Virus record (IMG/VR): IMGVR_UViG_3300048592_000125
Location: 1-30,352 of that record
From: a virus
Strand: one strand, 5' to 3'
Length of the DNA stretch: 30,352 nt
Part shown: positions 134-8,957 of the stretch, piece after piece
Position numbering within the stretch: position 1 is the first letter of the stretch
Layout of the letters: each line of letters begins with the position of its first letter
The notes under the pieces: model-generated
What the model was told of the DNA's origin: nothing
Databases searched by the model: none
The model's input: only the letters and a program-made list of their open reading frames with translations
Translations under genes and position numbers: made by a program

Positions 134-437
134 TCCCGAGACGTTCGAGGACGTCACCAGTCGAGAGCCGGCATCGCTCGATCATGACGAGTACACGGCG
201 GTCGGCCTGAGAGCCCTCAAGCCGTTCACCACGTCGCTGGCCTGTGTGGTCAACGGCGACTATCGGAAGATCGTTCACATGCAGCAGCCAGTGGGTTGCC
301 GAGAGACTGAGCGAGAGTGGAAGCGGTTCTGCGTAGCCGTTCGTGCCGTCGTGCTCGGAGAGGAAACGCTGTCCGAGCGAGCCGACCGGTACCGTCGACT
401 GCTCCTGTGTCATGGGATAGACCCCGATGAGAGATGA
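108..437 (+). CDS. Unknown small phage protein, TTG start
   Basis: A 109-residue protein that I do not recognise. The start is TTG at 108, chosen because a near-perfect Shine-Dalgarno sequence (AGGAGGT) sits 8 bases upstream and no ATG is available nearby. The N-terminal third is acidic (IDPETFEDV, SLDHDEY). The C-terminal half is Arg/Glu-rich and probably helical (TEREWKRFCVAV, SERADRYRRLLL) and ends in GIDPDER. There is no signal peptide or membrane segment. It overlaps both the upstream partial gene and the following synthase-like gene (start 427), so the three are probably translated from one message. A role linked to nucleotide metabolism is suggested only by position. Confidence 0.7.
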   Translation: MSYTIALIDPETFEDVTSREPASLDHDEYTAVGLRALKPFTTSLACVVNGDYRKIVHMQQPVGCRETEREWKRFCVAVRAVVLGEETLSERADRYRRLLLCHGIDPDER

Positions 438-1230
438 CTGGCTTGACAGCGCGCTGGCAATGTGCGGCCAGAAAGCAGCGTTCTACTCGGGGGCTCGAAA
501 GATCCTCCGAGGACGCTCTGTCCTTTACCGAAACTGGGAGAATGATCTGACGCTGGCGGACTGCGGGTACACCAAGTCCAAGATGACGATGCTCCACAAG
601 TACTACCTGCACGAGGAGTCTCGCGCTGAGGCAATGCGTCAGTGGGAGGCAAGACTCGGCAAGGCCAAGTACGGCAGCGTTGGATTTCATACGTACAACC
701 ATCTAGTCAAGGGGCACGAGGGCTCGTCGAAGCGAGCCAGCGTCATGGGCCCGTGCATTCAATCCGTCTGCCTGACACTGCAGAATAACAAACGGACGGG
801 GATTGACATCTTCTACAGGACTACGGAATACTTCAAGAAGTTCCCGGCGGACCTGGTGTTCGTTCGGGACGTGCTGCTGGAGGGCTTCGAGCTGGACGTG
901 GAGTCCGTGCGCTTTCACTTCGCCAATATCACGCTTCACCCGATGTACTTCGTCACGATCATCCCGTTGCTCGACCACCCTGTGGCAGATCTTGAGGACA
1001 TCAGGAGTCGGGACAAGTACTTTTTCGACTGGATCGTGAAGTGGACTGCTCGCTATCTGTGCCCAGAGCACAATCGCGGCATTGCGAAGTTTGCTCAGGC
1101 GATGCGAGTGCACGACGACGCTCACAGCCGGATCGAGAAATCTCAGCTGAGATCGCTCATCAAGTATTTGAACGATCACCACCCTGGCTATAGGAAAGAG
1201 TACGTAGACCCAGACGAGGATGATGAATGA
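427..1230 (+). CDS. Divergent thymidylate synthase / dCMP hydroxymethylase-like protein A
   Basis: A 267-residue protein, close to the usual length of thymidylate synthase (about 264 in E. coli). I assign it to that superfamily from aligned motifs, not from overall similarity. A GPC motif (Cys110) can be the catalytic nucleophile. It is followed 21 residues later by YRTTE (Arg131, Glu134), at the place of the phosphate-binding RSxD motif. The string FPAD then puts Pro140 and Asp142 at the positions of E. coli Pro175 and Asn177. A later ITLHPMY segment (His171, Tyr174) resembles the HLY ribose-binding motif. Asp instead of Asn is the hallmark of dCMP-specific enzymes such as T4 dCMP hydroxymethylase. 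The acidic C-terminus (DPDEDDE) overlaps the start of the second synthase-like gene by 4 bases. The family call is moderate; substrate and product are inference. It could be a non-catalytic partner. Confidence 0.55.
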   Translation: MRDDWLDSALAMCGQKAAFYSGARKILRGRSVLYRNWENDLTLADCGYTKSKMTMLHKYYLHEESRAEAMRQWEARLGKAKYGSVGFHTYNHLVKGHEGSSKRASVMGPCIQSVCLTLQNNKRTGIDIFYRTTEYFKKFPADLVFVRDVLLEGFELDVESVRFHFANITLHPMYFVTIIPLLDHPVADLEDIRSRDKYFFDWIVKWTARYLCPEHNRGIAKFAQAMRVHDDAHSRIEKSQLRSLIKYLNDHHPGYRKEYVDPDEDDE

Positions 1231-2069
1231 TCACCGACCGCAACTTTCAGAACCTGATGGCCCGCGTAAAGCAAGATATGTACGCCAACGGCAGGCAGGC
1301 CAAGCCGATGCACTGGCAGGGCATGAACGTCGCCAACCGACCAGAGATGAAAACCTACGAGCTGATGCACTTCAACTGCAAGGTGCCGCTCCAAGGTATC
1401 GAAGACCTGACCCACTGGCGAAAGGACATTCAGCCTAACCTCCCGTGGGCCGACGCCCATTTCCTCGAGCGTGTCTGCGGCGCTCCTATCAACCCGGGTG
1501 TGGAGTGGGAGAACTGGCCCTGGGGTAACAGCGCGGATCGTTTCAGGAGCGATGAGCAATTCAACCACAACTACATGGAGCGATATTGGCCACGCTACGC
1601 CGGCGTGGTGACTGCTCCGACCCGCACTCCGGAGGACTGGGATGCTGGCTTCATGGAGCTGGACAACCCTGTCGGCCACTACGGTATCCGTGCTCGATAC
1701 GGCGATCTTCGCGATCTGCTCAACCTGCTTGTGCGAGATCCTCAGACGAGGCAAGCATGGCTGCCTATCTACTTCCCGGAAGACGTTTCGCTGGGGCCGA
1801 CCCACCGGAAGCCCTGCACCCTCGGCTACCAGTTCATCATGCGAGAAGGTCGACTGGACGTATACTACCCGCTCCGATCCTGTGACTTCATCAGGCACTT
1901 CCGGGACGATATCTACCTCACAATTCGACTGTTGCTGTGGGTGCTCGAGCAGCTGAGGATCGACGACGAGCTCTGGCACGACGTGAAGCCCGGCCTCTAC
2001 GTCATGCACTGCACCAGCCTCCACATCTTCGAGAATGACTGGTATGCCCTCTATGGCAAAAAGCCGTAA
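1227..2069 (+). CDS. Thymidylate synthase / dCMP hydroxymethylase family protein B
   Basis: A 280-residue protein with clear superfamily motifs: R-x-YGDL and DPQTRQA (around 157-177, matching the arginine-containing phosphate-binding region), catalytic PC (Cys197) followed by YQF, then RSCD (217-220) exactly 20 residues after the Cys as in E. coli, and SLHIF (264-268) near the C-terminus in place of THLY. Eight residues after the Asp of RSCD lies Asp228, where E. coli thymidylate synthase has Asn177. In the family this change shifts specificity from dUMP to dCMP. The enzyme would transfer a one-carbon unit from methylene-tetrahydrofolate to C5 of a pyrimidine nucleotide in the cytoplasm, giving a methylated or hydroxymethylated product. 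The ATG at 1227 overlaps the preceding gene's stop (ATGA). Family confidence is good; the exact product is unknown. Confidence 0.75.
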   Translation: MITDRNFQNLMARVKQDMYANGRQAKPMHWQGMNVANRPEMKTYELMHFNCKVPLQGIEDLTHWRKDIQPNLPWADAHFLERVCGAPINPGVEWENWPWGNSADRFRSDEQFNHNYMERYWPRYAGVVTAPTRTPEDWDAGFMELDNPVGHYGIRARYGDLRDLLNLLVRDPQTRQAWLPIYFPEDVSLGPTHRKPCTLGYQFIMREGRLDVYYPLRSCDFIRHFRDDIYLTIRLLLWVLEQLRIDDELWHDVKPGLYVMHCTSLHIFENDWYALYGKKP

Positions 2070-2382
2070 GTACTCCGTCGCCGGCTCTAAGCCCAACTGG
2101 ACGCAGGAGGAGGACGACCTCCTTCGACGTCTATGGGCCACAGGGATGGGAGCTAAGCAAGTCGCACTGTACATGGAGGGTCGTTCGTGGAGTGCGGTCA
2201 AGAAGCGTAGGATGGCACTGGGGCTTCCTCGCAAGAGGGAGGTCGAGACCAAGGACCAGTCTCTCCGGGTCAACCTGACGGAGCGAGAGTACTGGCAAGT
2301 TCGTCAACGCGCCGCCTCTCGGGGACTCACTGTGGCTGAGTACCTGAGACAGCTTATAAGGGCTGACCATGAGGATAAGTAG
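2053..2382 (+). CDS. Myb/GcrA-like HTH plus ribbon-helix-helix DNA-binding protein
   Basis: A 109-residue protein. Residues about 15-60 (NWTQEEDDLLRRLW, then GAKQVALYM and SAVKKRRMALGL) look like the tryptophan-containing Myb/SANT or GcrA-type helix-turn-helix found in many phage and alphaproteobacterial regulators. Residues about 70-105 (LRVNLTEREYWQVRQRA, then LTVAEYLRQLI) fit a ribbon-helix-helix fold, with a short strand followed by two helices. I chose ATG 2053 because the protein then begins MAKSRKYS; in-frame ATGs at 2035 and 2044 are possible and none has a strong Shine-Dalgarno sequence. It overlaps the synthase gene before it and the dCMP deaminase after it. It probably binds DNA as a regulator; the target is unknown. 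Confidence 0.65.
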   Translation: MAKSRKYSVAGSKPNWTQEEDDLLRRLWATGMGAKQVALYMEGRSWSAVKKRRMALGLPRKREVETKDQSLRVNLTEREYWQVRQRAASRGLTVAEYLRQLIRADHEDK

Positions 2383-2833
2383 ACCCTCCATGCTCATGGA
2401 GATCGCTCACGTAGTCTCCAAGCGGAGTACGTGCTTCCGCCTCAATGTGGGAGCTGTGGTAGTCGTACAGAACCGCATCGTGAGCATAGGCTATAACGGT
2501 GCGCCTCCTGGCGCTCCGCACTGTACGGGCAACCTATGCCCTGGAAAGAATAGCTGTCACGAGACGATCCACGCGGAAGTCAACGCGCTGGACTACGTCC
2601 CGCCGTCACTGTGGGGCTCGATCAAGGACTTGTACGTCACGGACAGCCCGTGCCAGAATTGCCTCGAGTACGTTGGCTCTCGGTACGTCAGCCGCCTGTT
2701 CTTCGACCGGCTCTACCGCCACCATGATCACCTGCTCAAATACCCCCAGTTCTTCCCGGGCGGCATTTATCAGGTGACTCCTTCGGGATACGTGATAGAC
2801 TGGCGAACGAAGGAGATCGTTGATGAGAAGTGA
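2369..2833 (+). CDS. Deoxycytidylate (dCMP) deaminase
   Basis: A 154-residue zinc enzyme that converts dCMP to dUMP, feeding thymidylate or modified-pyrimidine synthesis. The diagnostic motifs are present: GYNGAPPGAPHC (41-52, substrate binding), HAEVNAL (68-74, zinc ligand His68 and catalytic Glu70) and PCQNC (zinc ligands Cys95 and Cys98). Length is normal for the ComEB/T4 Cd family. The final part (about 125-154) is a phage-specific extension. The start at 2369 overlaps the preceding stop by 14 bases, and its own stop overlaps the polymerase start by 11 bases, so it belongs to the nucleotide-replication operon. Together with the two synthase-like genes it forms a pyrimidine cassette like that of T-even phages. 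Confidence 0.93.
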   Translation: MRISRPSMLMEIAHVVSKRSTCFRLNVGAVVVVQNRIVSIGYNGAPPGAPHCTGNLCPGKNSCHETIHAEVNALDYVPPSLWGSIKDLYVTDSPCQNCLEYVGSRYVSRLFFDRLYRHHDHLLKYPQFFPGGIYQVTPSGYVIDWRTKEIVDEK

Positions 2834-5672
2834 GGAGTGCAAGCTCTGTAAGCTTCACCAGACGTGCCAGACGGTCGGCCTCATGGGTACGGGGCCGACT
2901 CCCTGCGATATCATGATAGTGGGCGAAGCTCCCGGAAGGAGAGAGGATGAGGGAGGAGAGCCCTTCATCGGGAAGGCCGGTCAGCTGCTGACGGAGATCC
3001 TGGCATCCTACGGCATCAGTCGCAAGAGAGTCTACATCACTAACGCAGTCCACTGCCGCCCTCCTGACAATCGAACACCCACCAAAAGCGAGATCAAGAA
3101 GTGCAAGGCCTGGCTTGACTACGAGATCCAGAAGGTAAGGCCGAAGTTCGTCCTGCTCCTCGGAAACACGCCACTCATGTCGATCACCGGGTCTTCCGGC
3201 ATCAGCACTCGACGGGGCAGGCCATTCGAGCAGGACGGCATCATCTATCTGCCAACGTTTCACCCGGCATTCGCTCTGCGGGATCCTACTCAGACCCACT
3301 TTATAGAGAGCGACGTTCGGCTGCTATGCGAGATTGTGAAGGCGGGTGAGATACCTCGCGAGGAGAAGCTCAGGCCTAACCTTGTCAGGACCACAGCTGA
3401 CTTCAAGAGGATGCTAGCCGCTCTTCGCGGCATCGTGTCCTTCGACATTGAGACCACGTGCCTCTACCCCTGGCAGAAGACTGAGCTCAAGACCGTAGCC
3501 GGCAAGCCCACCTACGTTGATGCTCCGGCCAAGATCACGATGATCGGCTTCGGCACAAGCGTCGGCGAGTTCTCTCTACCCCTTCATCATCTGGAGTCTC
3601 CCTTCAGCGAGGAGGCTATCGACCAGATGATCCACGAGATAGACCGCACCCTCGAGGAGTATGAGGTCGAGCTCGCGGTCCACAATGGCAAGTTCGATGG
3701 CCTGTGGATGTGGGTTCACTACGCAGTGAAGTGGTATCAGCGGATGGTCTTCGACACGATGCTGGCTCACTACGCCCTAGACGAGAATAGTCGTCATGGG
3801 CTGAAGGAGCTGGCCATGAAGTTCTGCGGTGCCCCCGACTGGGATATCGACAAAGACAAGAAGCGTGGCAACACTTCGCTGGAGAAGCTAGCGTTGTATC
3901 ACGCTCATGACCTGTACTATACGCTTGACCTAAGGCGCAAGTTCCGCAAGATGCTGTTGAAGGACCCGGAGAGCCATCAGGTCTTCATGAAGATACTCAT
4001 GCCCTGCGCCAGGATGTTCACTGAGATCGAGTACAGTGGCATCTACATCGACCACACGAAATTCGACGAGGCTGAGGAAGTCCTCCGCAAGCTAAAGGAC
4101 GAGGCTGAGCAGGAGCTCAAGCAGTGGGGCGATATCAACTGGGGTTCGACTGCTCAGCTTAGCGATCTGCTCTACAACCAGCTGAAAATCCCTGTGGTCG
4201 AGAAGACCAAGACTGGGGCGCCGTCGTGCAGCGAGTCTGCGCTCAACCAGATAGACCACCCATGCGTCGGGGCGCTGATCAGGTATCGTGGGGCCAAGCA
4301 GCAGCTGTCGTTCTTCATTGATGGCTGGAAGCCCTTCATTCACTGGAGGCGCATCAAGGGCGAGAAGCACGCCTTCCTTCACCCGTCGTTCAAGCTGCAC
4401 GGCACCGTGACCGGTCGGCTGTCCTGCGAGCACCCCAACCTTCAGCAAGTTCCCCGGGATCCTCGCATCCGGACGTTGATCACTGCCCCGCCAGGCTGGA
4501 CACTGATCGAGTGCGACCTTAGCCAGATCGAGCTACGTGTGGCTGCTGAGCTAGCCAACGAGCGAACACTCTTGCAGGTCTTCTATAATGACGGAGACCC
4601 ACACTGGACTACGGTTATCCGCTCTCTAGAACGAGGGGCGGGTGGTGAGTACCTGGAGGTAATGAATGAAACCGCGGCAATGTTTCTTGTGTCAATCGGC
4701 CTACCTCCCGACGGGACCGGCGCAAAAATACTGCTTGACCTGTGGCGAGCAGCGAAAGAGAGAGTTGGTGCGGCGCAACTCCTACAATCATGCTATAAGG
4801 AGTGGTCGAATAAAGAGTCCAGGTTGCGGCAGCGGTGGCAATCAGAGGAACAGCTTAAATCCCTACTGGAAAGGGGGTGGCCCGATCTGGGCGAGAAAGT
4901 TCAGGGGAACGTGCTGCGAGCGCTGCGGGTCTACTTCGAACACCTGTCTTCATCACAAGAACGGAAACAGGAAAAACAACCACGTATCCAATTTGGAGAC
5001 GTTGTGTCGATCCTGTCATGCCTCGGAGCATCAGTTGCAGAAGAATTTCGCAAGGAGTGGAAAGAGCTGAGGAAGAAAGCAAAGGCTGAGAACTTCGGGT
5101 TTTTATACGGAATGTGGTGGAAGAAGTTTCTCGTCTACGCTCGGGATAACTATGGAGTCAATCTGACAGAAACGCAAGCCCAAGAAAGTCGAGAGTCCTT
5201 CTTTGCCTTGTACGTAGACCTTCCTCAGTGGCACAACAAGCAGCGGCACTTCGCCCGTCGCAACGGCTACGTTCGGTCGCTGTCTGGCCGGAAGCGTCGG
5301 CTGCCCAACGCGATGCTGATGGAGGACACGCCACAGAGGAGGGAGGCCGAGCGTCAGGCGATCAACTCGCCTGTGCAGTCATTCGCCAACGATATCAACC
5401 TAATGTCGGCTATTCAGCTTCGAAAGGAGTATGGACTAGACAAGGTTCGTATTGTCGGCACTGTCCATGACGCCATCCTAGCGATGGTCAAGGATGAGTA
5501 CCTGCCCGAAGTCATGCGTCGACTGCTGACCATCATGACGAGGCCCAAGCTCTTCGACGACTTTGACATTCAGCTCAAGGTCCCAGTCCTCGCGGACGGC
5601 AAGGTCGGACCCTGGGGCGCTGGAATTTCACTAGAGAAGTGGGAGAAAGCCAATGCTGTTCAAAGTAAATGA
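2823..5672 (+). CDS. Family-4 uracil-DNA glycosylase fused to family A DNA polymerase, with an inserted segment
   Basis: A 949-residue replicative polymerase. Residues 1-190 are a family-4 uracil-DNA glycosylase (SPO1 polymerase-related) domain: Fe-S cysteines in ECKLC plus HCRPP and KKCK, active-site GEAPG followed by EPFIGKAG, and FHPAF. A 3'-5' proofreading exonuclease follows: DIE (Asp208/Glu210), N288-x3-D292, and Y359-x3-D363. The polymerase domain has TGRL, motif A DLSQIELR (Asp565), motif B Arg750/Lys754/Phe758/Tyr762-Gly763 and motif C HDA (His882, Asp883), so catalytic residues look intact. In E. coli Pol I, motif A Asp to motif B Arg is 49 residues; here it is 185. The excess of about 136 residues coincides with an HNH gene in another frame. 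ATG 2823 is preferred over TTG 2820, with AAGGAG upstream. Whether the long product is active as such, or the insert is removed, cannot be told from sequence. Confidence 0.9.
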   Translation: MRSEECKLCKLHQTCQTVGLMGTGPTPCDIMIVGEAPGRREDEGGEPFIGKAGQLLTEILASYGISRKRVYITNAVHCRPPDNRTPTKSEIKKCKAWLDYEIQKVRPKFVLLLGNTPLMSITGSSGISTRRGRPFEQDGIIYLPTFHPAFALRDPTQTHFIESDVRLLCEIVKAGEIPREEKLRPNLVRTTADFKRMLAALRGIVSFDIETTCLYPWQKTELKTVAGKPTYVDAPAKITMIGFGTSVGEFSLPLHHLESPFSEEAIDQMIHEIDRTLEEYEVELAVHNGKFDGLWMWVHYAVKWYQRMVFDTMLAHYALDENSRHGLKELAMKFCGAPDWDIDKDKKRGNTSLEKLALYHAHDLYYTLDLRRKFRKMLLKDPESHQVFMKILMPCARMFTEIEYSGIYIDHTKFDEAEEVLRKLKDEAEQELKQWGDINWGSTAQLSDLLYNQLKIPVVEKTKTGAPSCSESALNQIDHPCVGALIRYRGAKQQLSFFIDGWKPFIHWRRIKGEKHAFLHPSFKLHGTVTGRLSCEHPNLQQVPRDPRIRTLITAPPGWTLIECDLSQIELRVAAELANERTLLQVFYNDGDPHWTTVIRSLERGAGGEYLEVMNETAAMFLVSIGLPPDGTGAKILLDLWRAAKERVGAAQLLQSCYKEWSNKESRLRQRWQSEEQLKSLLERGWPDLGEKVQGNVLRALRVYFEHLSSSQERKQEKQPRIQFGDVVSILSCLGASVAEEFRKEWKELRKKAKAENFGFLYGMWWKKFLVYARDNYGVNLTETQAQESRESFFALYVDLPQWHNKQRHFARRNGYVRSLSGRKRRLPNAMLMEDTPQRREAERQAINSPVQSFANDINLMSAIQLRKEYGLDKVRIVGTVHDAILAMVKDEYLPEVMRRLLTIMTRPKLFDDFDIQLKVPVLADGKVGPWGAGISLEKWEKANAVQSK
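4666..5070 (+). CDS. HNH homing endonuclease overprinted in the polymerase gene
   Basis: A 134-residue protein in the +1 frame relative to the polymerase that surrounds it. It starts at ATG 4666, 5 bases after a strong Shine-Dalgarno sequence (GGAGGT, 4655-4660). The N-terminal CFLC and YCLTC pairs (Cys6, 9, 23, 26) form a likely zinc finger. NPYWKGG (65-71) resembles a DNA-contact motif of phage homing endonucleases. The C-terminal half is a classical HNH nuclease: CERC (84-87), LHHKNGNRKNN (95-105), then NLETLCRSCHASEH (109-122). Its last dozen codons and stop run into conserved polymerase sequence. Such enzymes cut a cognate site in gene copies lacking the insertion and so spread themselves. 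This stretch is more A-rich than its surroundings, supporting recent insertion. Confidence 0.85.
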   Translation: MKPRQCFLCQSAYLPTGPAQKYCLTCGEQRKRELVRRNSYNHAIRSGRIKSPGCGSGGNQRNSLNPYWKGGGPIWARKFRGTCCERCGSTSNTCLHHKNGNRKNNHVSNLETLCRSCHASEHQLQKNFARSGKS

Positions 5673-8488: not shown

Positions 8489-8540
8489 CAGAGAGCGAGG
8501 ATATCAAAGGTGCCGCTAGTCGTCAACAGGGAAATTGGAA

Positions 8541-8957
8541 ATGGCTAAAAAGCCTGAGAGTCGACTACAGCGCCGGATACGTGATAGGCTTGAGAAGGAG
8601 GTCGGCGGCTGGTGGTTCAAGGTTCATGGTAGCATGTTCCAGGTCGCAGGCGTCCCCGACCTCGTGGGATGCGTTAACGGCATGTTCTTTGCGCTGGAGG
8701 TAAAGACTGAGGATGGCGACACGAGTGAGATCCAGGACGAGACGATCCGGCGTATCAAGCTCGAAGGAGGCGGCGCAACCGTCGTCGTTACGCCGAAGGA
8801 AGCTGTGGCCTTCGTCAAAGAGCACTTACGAAAAGCTGGACGACTATCAGAAGCACGCGGTCCAGTTCGTGCTCGACATCCAGACGGCGGCTCTGATCTT
8901 CGAACAAGGAACAGGAAAGACGTGGATCGCCACTGGCGTCGTCGAAGCACTCGCTGA
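8541..8957 (+). CDS. VRR-NUC domain nuclease
   Basis: A small PD-(D/E)XK nuclease. Catalytic motif GVPD (Asp40) is followed by FFALEVKT (Glu53, Lys55). The conserved N-terminal ESRLQRRIRDRL and the C-terminal GGGATVVVTPKEAVAFVKE complete a standard domain of about 95 residues. VRR-NUC proteins are structure-specific nucleases, or restriction-type nucleases, often encoded next to SNF2-type helicases in phages. ATG 8541 follows AGGGA by 7 bases; TTG 8535 is an alternative. The frame does not stop after the domain. It runs about 43 more codons, Arg-rich and shadow-like, over the helicase coding region to TGA at 8955-8957. This suggests that the true end, or a frameshift into the helicase, lies near 8815-8830. 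Confidence 0.8.
   Translation: MAKKPESRLQRRIRDRLEKEVGGWWFKVHGSMFQVAGVPDLVGCVNGMFFALEVKTEDGDTSEIQDETIRRIKLEGGGATVVVTPKEAVAFVKEHLRKAGRLSEARGPVRARHPDGGSDLRTRNRKDVDRHWRRRSTR

Follow-up and report, generated by a model that had tools for sequence, protein, structure and literature searches.

What would a phage make with two dissimilar thymidylate synthase (TS)-like proteins whose genes lie end to end? The question is raised by the DNA analysed here (the window), a stretch of 30,352 nucleotides from the viral record IMGVR_UViG_3300048592_000125. A preliminary description had noticed the catalytic pattern of TS in both proteins and had proposed that the pair might make a C5-modified pyrimidine nucleotide, perhaps as a heterodimer with one merely regulatory subunit. 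Our analysis shows that the pair is real and common; most likely it serves to modify cytosine and includes a new member of the TS fold.

Organization of the gene pair and its surroundings

Gene 1 (427..1230, plus strand) encodes a 267-aa protein of predicted TS fold, which is usually annotated as 'hypothetical'. Gene 2 (1227..2069, plus strand) encodes a 280-aa homologue of TS and pyrimidine hydroxymethylases. As read from the sequence, the two adjacent ORFs share the four bases ATGA at 1227..1230 (plus strand), exactly the overlap reported before, which is a sign of translational coupling between the genes. The identical −4 overlap of genes 1 and 2 was found at 58 relative loci, duplicates counted in.

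Downstream on the plus strand, a dCMP deaminase (2369..2833; PF00383, 9.4e-15; phrog_174, 9.3e-34) belongs to the same cassette as genes 1 and 2. It is followed by a DNA polymerase of family A that carries a family 4 uracil-DNA glycosylase domain at its N-terminus (2820..5672; PF03167, 1.2e-34; PF00476, 4.2e-66; TIGR00758, 4.8e-47). The contig of the window begins just ahead of gene 1, so the kinase and the pyrophosphatase that accompany the pair in its relatives are not visible in the window.

Several other features of the region were recorded. Between gene 2 and the deaminase lies an ORF for a small DNA-binding protein of unusual composition (2035..2382, plus strand), combining a GcrA/Myb-like part with a NikA-like ribbon-helix-helix (Pfam PF07750, 1.4e-6; PF21983, 2e-6); its start falls within the 3' part of gene 2, and an alternative start near 2056 is possible. 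The glycosylase domain of this PolA fusion is seemingly degenerate in relatives such as L002 and L004, where it is without the Cys cluster. At 4553-5050, polA is about 290 nt longer than in the close relative L001 and the PolA frame stays open; an HNH-endonuclease-like ORF (4666-5070) lies there in a different frame. In the stretch 100-426, the ORF at 108-437 directly before gene 1 is missing from the otherwise collinear L001, which matches positions 1-99 of the window at 100% and resumes its match from 427. Farther downstream, a short ORF (8535-8957) that by eye is VRR-type nuclease-like precedes an SNF2-like helicase ORF. No Rfam RNA was found in the window or in loci L133 and L156.

Gene 2 is a member of the TS superfamily

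Gene 2 encodes a clear TS superfamily protein. It is a member of phrog_160 (E 2.8e-25), which is labelled thymidylate synthase, and yet its invariant Asp says dCMP. The match to the Pfam TS profile (2e-4) was just under the cut-off of that profile. The top profile match was AfhB (1.9e-8), the flavin-dependent dCMP hydroxylase of Escherichia phage HY126, and hhalign gave 98.3% for AfhB, 97.1% for ThyA and 94.2% for T4 dCMP hydroxymethylase. The gene 2 homologue of L004 (53% identity) was modelled and gave Z of 17.7-18.4 to AfhB, MilA, TS and T4 dCMP hydroxymethylase.

In gene 2 the catalytic Cys197 is followed 20 residues on by Arg217, and Asp228, at the position of Asn177 of TS, lies 11 residues past Arg217 and 8 past Asp220. 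Cys197, Arg217, Asp228, Arg175, Gln176 and His266 were invariant in 107/107 relatives. Glu118 was Glu in 104 of the 107, and Asp220 (169 position) was Asp in 106. Equivalents of the TS Cys, Arg166, Arg126, Glu58 and His207 are all present (Cys197, Arg217, Arg175, Glu118 and His266), and Arg175-Gln176 stands where TS has Arg-Arg. In the profile alignments E118-xx-W121 may be read onto E58-xx-W61 of TS, and Y158-G onto Y94-G. The residue following the Cys, Thr198 in the window, was Thr in 69 relatives and Ser in 38 (n = 107). The Cys is followed by Thr also in T4 dCMP hydroxymethylase, MilA and AfhB, all with Asp at 177, and by His in E. coli TS; gene 2 carries both sequence marks of dCMP hydroxymethylases, Asp at 177/179 and a residue other than His after the Cys. 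Replacement of Asn177 by Asp in TS favours dCMP over dUMP.

Gene 2 of L133 (3440-4702) and of L156 (11024-12472) contains an in-frame LAGLIDADG homing-endonuclease stretch at about the same place in both. No group I intron was detected by Rfam at either interrupted gene.

Gene 1 has a predicted TS fold

None of 75 members of the gene 1 family matched Pfam PF00303. Gene 1 also gave no match to the NCBIfam TS profiles, and none to PDB by sequence search. Nothing significant came from comparing the gene 1 profile with gene 2 or AfhB, or the actinophage set of gene 1 proteins with gene 2. A Pfam MCR_alpha hit (E 0.019) was rejected, being below the cut-off and found in 1 of 75 members. Because the profile comparisons gave no significant match, the question of kinship was moved to structure.

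The AlphaFold2 model of gene 1, built with 75 relatives, had a pLDDT of 92.7 and a pTM of 0.88. Foldseek against PDB returned AfhB (9iqu/9iqc), MilA and thymidylate synthases as best matches (E 3e-5 to 1e-3). By VIA, gene 1 aligned with AfhB (9iqu) at Z 13.1 over 177 residues and 3.7 A, with about 11% identity, and with MilA and TS at Z 10.4-12.4. TS-fold enzymes occupied the top 50 structural matches. A best Z of 7-8 is common in VIA for unrelated models; the 13 of gene 1 is well above this, with one superfamily filling the list. Gene 1 is thus predicted, in a confident model, to have the TS fold, and its place in the superfamily rests on this fold together with the spacing of four residues.

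Those residues, Tyr60, Cys110, Arg131 and Asp142, were the only ones invariant among 94 different gene 1 relatives, some of them down to about 15% identity with the protein of the window. Arg131 lies 21 residues past Cys110, and Asp142 lies 11 past Arg131 and 8 past Glu134. The successive spacings of Y60/C110/R131/D142 are 50, 21 and 11, vs 52, 20 and 11 for Y94/C146/R166/N177 of E. coli TS. Cys110, Arg131 and Asp142 fit Cys146, Arg166 and position 177 of TS, with Asp for Asn. We infer the equivalence of Tyr60 and Tyr94 from spacing and helix order rather than superposed coordinates. The Glu134 column (169 position) was Glu in 91 of 94 relatives, and Lys52, on the helix preceding Tyr60, was basic in 94/94. 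No column before Cys110 was acidic in more than 85% of the 94 sequences, so the Glu58 of folate chemistry seems to be absent from gene 1, the helix correspondence being itself deduced. Without a conserved Glu58, ordinary folate chemistry by gene 1 appears unlikely.

The Cys/Arg/Asp spacing given in the preliminary description, with Asp142 and Asp228, proved exact in both proteins, and the invariance of the pattern (C110/R131/D142, with Tyr60, n = 94; C197/R217/D228, n = 107) takes the resemblance to TS far beyond chance. The TS fold, which it had set as a test, was recovered in the gene 1 model and in that of the L004 gene 2 homologue. The kinship of gene 2 with TS was confirmed by sequence, including the profile search that had been proposed. 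For gene 1 it held at the level of fold and residue spacing and failed in sequence profiles, where no TS profile was matched.

Distribution and cassette content

The arrangement had been thought unfamiliar. It is not peculiar to the window, since the pair occurs in more than 100 named phage records and dozens of IMG/VR contigs. By tblastn, gene 2 was found in 108 named phage records; gene 1 was found in 103, of which 18 were hit with the protein of the window, while the GTE2 protein as query added 85 actinophage records. Phages carrying the pair include Muddy, GTE2, Serbin, PMBT14 and the Gordonia Emalynvirus phages. GTE2 orf39 and Muddy gp47 were assigned to gene 1 by hhalign (E 6e-6) and by the common Cys/Arg/Asp, and Muddy gene 1 also gave an independent profile match (E 1.8e-6).

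Gene 2 relatives were present in 395 IMG/VR stretches, of which the best 80 were taken. Among these, 56 loci had 4 kb on both sides; gene 1 was present in 50 of the 56, dCMP deaminase in 56, the pyrophosphatase in 55 and the kinase in 50. Gene 1 occurred together with gene 2 at 136/150 loci, a redundant set in which some loci were retrieved through gene 1. Gene 2 lacked gene 1 in a minority of loci, and the pair is not strictly inseparable. The customary order is kinase, pyrophosphatase, gene 1, gene 2, deaminase, PolA, Cas4-like and Sak4. At gene 1 loci (n = 74) an NTP-PPase of d(U/C)TPase-like type was present in 73, dCMP deaminase in 72 and a TMPK-like kinase in 70. ThyX was additionally present at 7 of the 74 loci, and dTMP therefore has another source there. 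The literature searched yielded no paper on a paired TS system, and neither biochemistry nor a study of virion DNA for a phage with gene 1.

Gene 1 and a variant C5-cytosine methyltransferase seem to exclude each other

Of the 56 well-flanked loci, six lacked gene 1, two of which are near-identical. Each of the six carried a C5-cytosine methyltransferase-like protein, which was found at 0 of the 50 loci with gene 1. Three of these methyltransferases matched Pfam PF00145 (E 6e-18 to 5e-11). Their motif IV is HPEC, QPKC or HCEC and their motif VI is DDL, ENL or DNL. In a separate scan with the methyltransferase protein, 34 loci were found; a gene 2-type TS was nearby in 31 and gene 1 in 0. Whole-contig searches found gene 1 in 0/26 methyltransferase contigs and the methyltransferase in 0/49 gene 1 contigs, that is, in none of 75 contigs were both present (positive controls 6/6 and 4/4). 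In the neighbourhood of gene 2, gene 1 and the variant METHYLTRANSFERASE appear to be ALTERNATIVES; each adjoins gene 2, most often on its upstream side.

On the gene 2 tree the gene 1/methyltransferase label changed at least 7 times, 4 of the changes being forced by well-supported branches, vs about 30 changes in shuffles. This tree was built rapidly and has many weak forks, and the labels played a part in choosing the sets, so that the number of swaps (4 to 7) is rough. The modules also differ in content: the kinase was present in 70/74 loci of the gene 1 type vs 11/29 of the methyltransferase type, and an N6/N4 methyltransferase in 0/74 vs 17/29. The loci are related, and P values for these two comparisons are not independent tests.

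In L080 (4877-7039) the variant C5-methyltransferase has an intein-like insert at the catalytic Cys of motif IV (HPE/C...VMKN/CGNFS), a position that suggests the importance of this Cys. In L036 (5308-7614) a single ORF holds the variant and an N6/N4-methyltransferase-like domain (NNPPY motif), which are encoded by adjacent genes in other loci.

The repeated swap points to a common role. Gene 1 and the variant methyltransferase might be interchangeable second-step enzymes that attack C6 of the cytosine hydroxymethylated by gene 2 and replace the hydroxyl, which would yield an undescribed hypermodified cytosine; one enzyme would act on the nucleotide and the other on DNA. We regard this as doubtful. 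A better, still tentative, case can be made for two separate anti-restriction strategies in which gene 1 and the methyltransferase serve a different biochemical step. Such strategies would account for the difference between whole modules (N6/N4 methyltransferase and kinase), but the two proteins have the same neighbour in gene 2, mostly occupy one slot next to it and were swapped several times on its tree. A plain C5-methyltransferase would moreover be left without a substrate if gene 2 had already filled every cytosine C5. Separate strategies compete with the second-step proposal and are compatible with our best explanation of the pair.

Discussion

The cassette, the published parallels given here and the presence of ThyX besides the pair at some loci point, indirectly, to cytosine and away from dTMP. 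Pyrophosphatase, kinase and dCMP deaminase around the pair are what phages with modified cytosine carry. In the MetaGPA study, TS proteins on modified-cytosine contigs mostly have Asp177, with position 147 as the other marker, and dCMP deaminase and PRA-PH are among the co-occurring domains (PMC8670742). Shewanella phage Thanatos, whose cytosine modification was proven by LC-MS, has a TS-like protein along with a dCMP deaminase and a dCTPase (PMC12838424). A 2026 paper describes 5-hydroxy-dCMP as also made by a synthase of the TS superfamily (PMC13390438). The 9g-group relatives of Serbin have a queuosine-type gene cluster, and Serbin is without the cluster and with the TS set; the Serbin genome report makes no mention of modified DNA (PMC6509536). 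No glycosyltransferase or other hypermodifying enzyme was annotated in Muddy or in the examined parts of Serbin.

Of the known systems, AfhB (9iqu, 9iqc) is nearest to gene 1 by fold and to gene 2 by profile. It shares the TS fold and Asp at 177 with the pair and the Cys-Thr nucleophile motif with gene 2. It differs in being a single protein of a T4-like phage and in an Asn at the place of Asp220 of gene 2 and Glu134 of gene 1. A large N-terminal insert further sets gene 2 apart from AfhB, and gene 1, again unlike AfhB, is without a conserved Glu58 equivalent. T4 gp42 dCMP hydroxymethylase resembles gene 2 in Asp at 177/179, Thr after the Cys, Glu58/60 and Asp at 169, and works, like the cassette, beside a dCTPase, a kinase and a deaminase. 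T4, however, has one TS-like protein, not two; gene 2 is about 20% identical to gp42, and, unlike in T4, no glucosyltransferase was found near the gene pair. The CMP hydroxymethylase MilA (5b6d, 5jp9) has the TS fold, Cys-Thr and an Asp-type pyrimidine reader, but is a ribonucleotide enzyme of antibiotic synthesis, and we know of no second TS-like partner for it. The Asp177 TS proteins of MetaGPA are like gene 2 in Asp177, in a changed 147 and in dCMP deaminase and PRA-PH pyrophosphatase neighbours; the TS sections of that report describe no gene 1-like second TS-fold partner, the characterised partner being a carbamoyltransferase (PMC8670742).

Our best explanation, for which we judge the chances to be about even, is that genes 1 and 2 are two catalytic TS-fold enzymes, both specific for cytosine nucleotides, in a phage cassette making C5-modified dCMP. 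Gene 2 would most likely take the first step and put a hydroxymethyl (one-carbon) or a hydroxyl group onto C5 of dCMP. Hydroxymethylation is our leading guess, because the folate-type residues Glu118 and Asp220 (Asn in AfhB) are kept, and AfhB-type hydroxylation comes next. Gene 1 would most likely be a second catalytic step or a partner. Having retained the Cys nucleophile, the Arg for the phosphate, the Asp that reads cytosine and the Tyr, but not the Glu, it would probably form a Cys-C6 adduct on dCMP or on the gene 2 product and then carry out chemistry other than methylene transfer. The pyrophosphatase of the relatives would clear dCTP/dUTP, and the TMPK-like kinase would phosphorylate the modified dNMP; its association with gene 1 suggests a modified dNMP that requires a kinase of its own. 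The PolA-family polymerase would then put the modified dNTP into DNA, probably as an escape from restriction. The earlier proposal of a C5-modified pyrimidine nucleotide is supported in part, by the two TS folds, the dCMP-favouring Asp in both proteins and a cassette of the modified-cytosine type. The product is most likely a C5-modified dCMP, and virion DNA would then contain modified cytosine. Fold, residues, conservation, synteny and the partner swap are shown here, and the substrates, the products, the order of steps, incorporation and protection are proposed on that basis.

The pair could instead be an obligate heterodimer: gene 1, with no reaction of its own, would complete, shield or regulate the active site of gene 2 within a mixed TS dimer. 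TS enzymes are dimers in which Arg126/Arg127 are supplied across the interface; genes 1 and 2 adjoin and are often translationally coupled, and the Arg-Arg of TS is Arg175-Gln176 in gene 2. A linked gene 1-gene 2 chain of L004 (stops between the genes read as Ser) was predicted with both domains folded at a pTM of 0.48, a value that speaks neither for nor against a mixed dimer. The Cys, Arg, Asp and Tyr of gene 1 are, on the other hand, 100% invariant in 94 relatives, beyond the need of a structural subunit, which also weakens the earlier suggestion of a merely regulatory member, and gene 2 occurs without gene 1, with the methyltransferase instead. In L046 and L057 gene 1 lies 5 kb from gene 2, and no natural fusion was seen; both points speak mildly against a strict complex. 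We consider such a heterodimer rather unlikely.

Also unlikely, in our estimate, is an AfhB-like system, in which one or both proteins would be flavin-dependent dCMP hydroxylases yielding 5-hydroxy-dCMP. In its favour, AfhB ranks first among the structural matches of gene 1 (9iqu, Z 13.1; 9iqc is with FAD) and likewise among the profile matches of gene 2. For gene 2 AfhB is nevertheless tied structurally with MilA, TS and T4 dCMP hydroxymethylase, for gene 1 the identity is only about 11%, and genes of the arabinosyl pathway were not seen. AfhB has Asn at the Asp169 of folate enzymes, and the residue there is Asp in 106/107 gene 2 relatives and Glu in 91/94 gene 1 relatives, although Asn has not been established as a defining mark of AfhB. 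Very improbable is ordinary nucleotide supply, with gene 2 a dTMP synthase tolerating Asp177, gene 1 an accessory and the DNA normal. The annotation of gene 2 as 'thymidylate synthase' agrees with it, and the TMPK-like kinase, the dUTPase_2 protein and the dCMP deaminase would also serve dTMP synthesis; but Asp228 is kept in 107/107 relatives despite its preference for dCMP, His147 is replaced by Thr or Ser in gene 2, and ThyX is carried additionally at 7/74 loci.

In more than 100 named phage records an Asp177 'thymidylate synthase' has as its neighbour a 'hypothetical protein' of a TS-fold family whose catalytic tetrad is invariant. Phages already in cultivation allow a direct test of the cytosine reading of the pair. 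If it is true, Muddy, the Gordonia Emalynvirus phages, Serbin and PMBT14 carry modified cytosine, which we found reported nowhere in the literature, and if the two second-step enzymes were indeed interchangeable, a hypermodified cytosine would be spread through siphophages of many hosts, the mycobacteriophage Muddy included. Modified cytosine in these phages would have a bearing on restriction, CRISPR, type IV defence and phage therapy.
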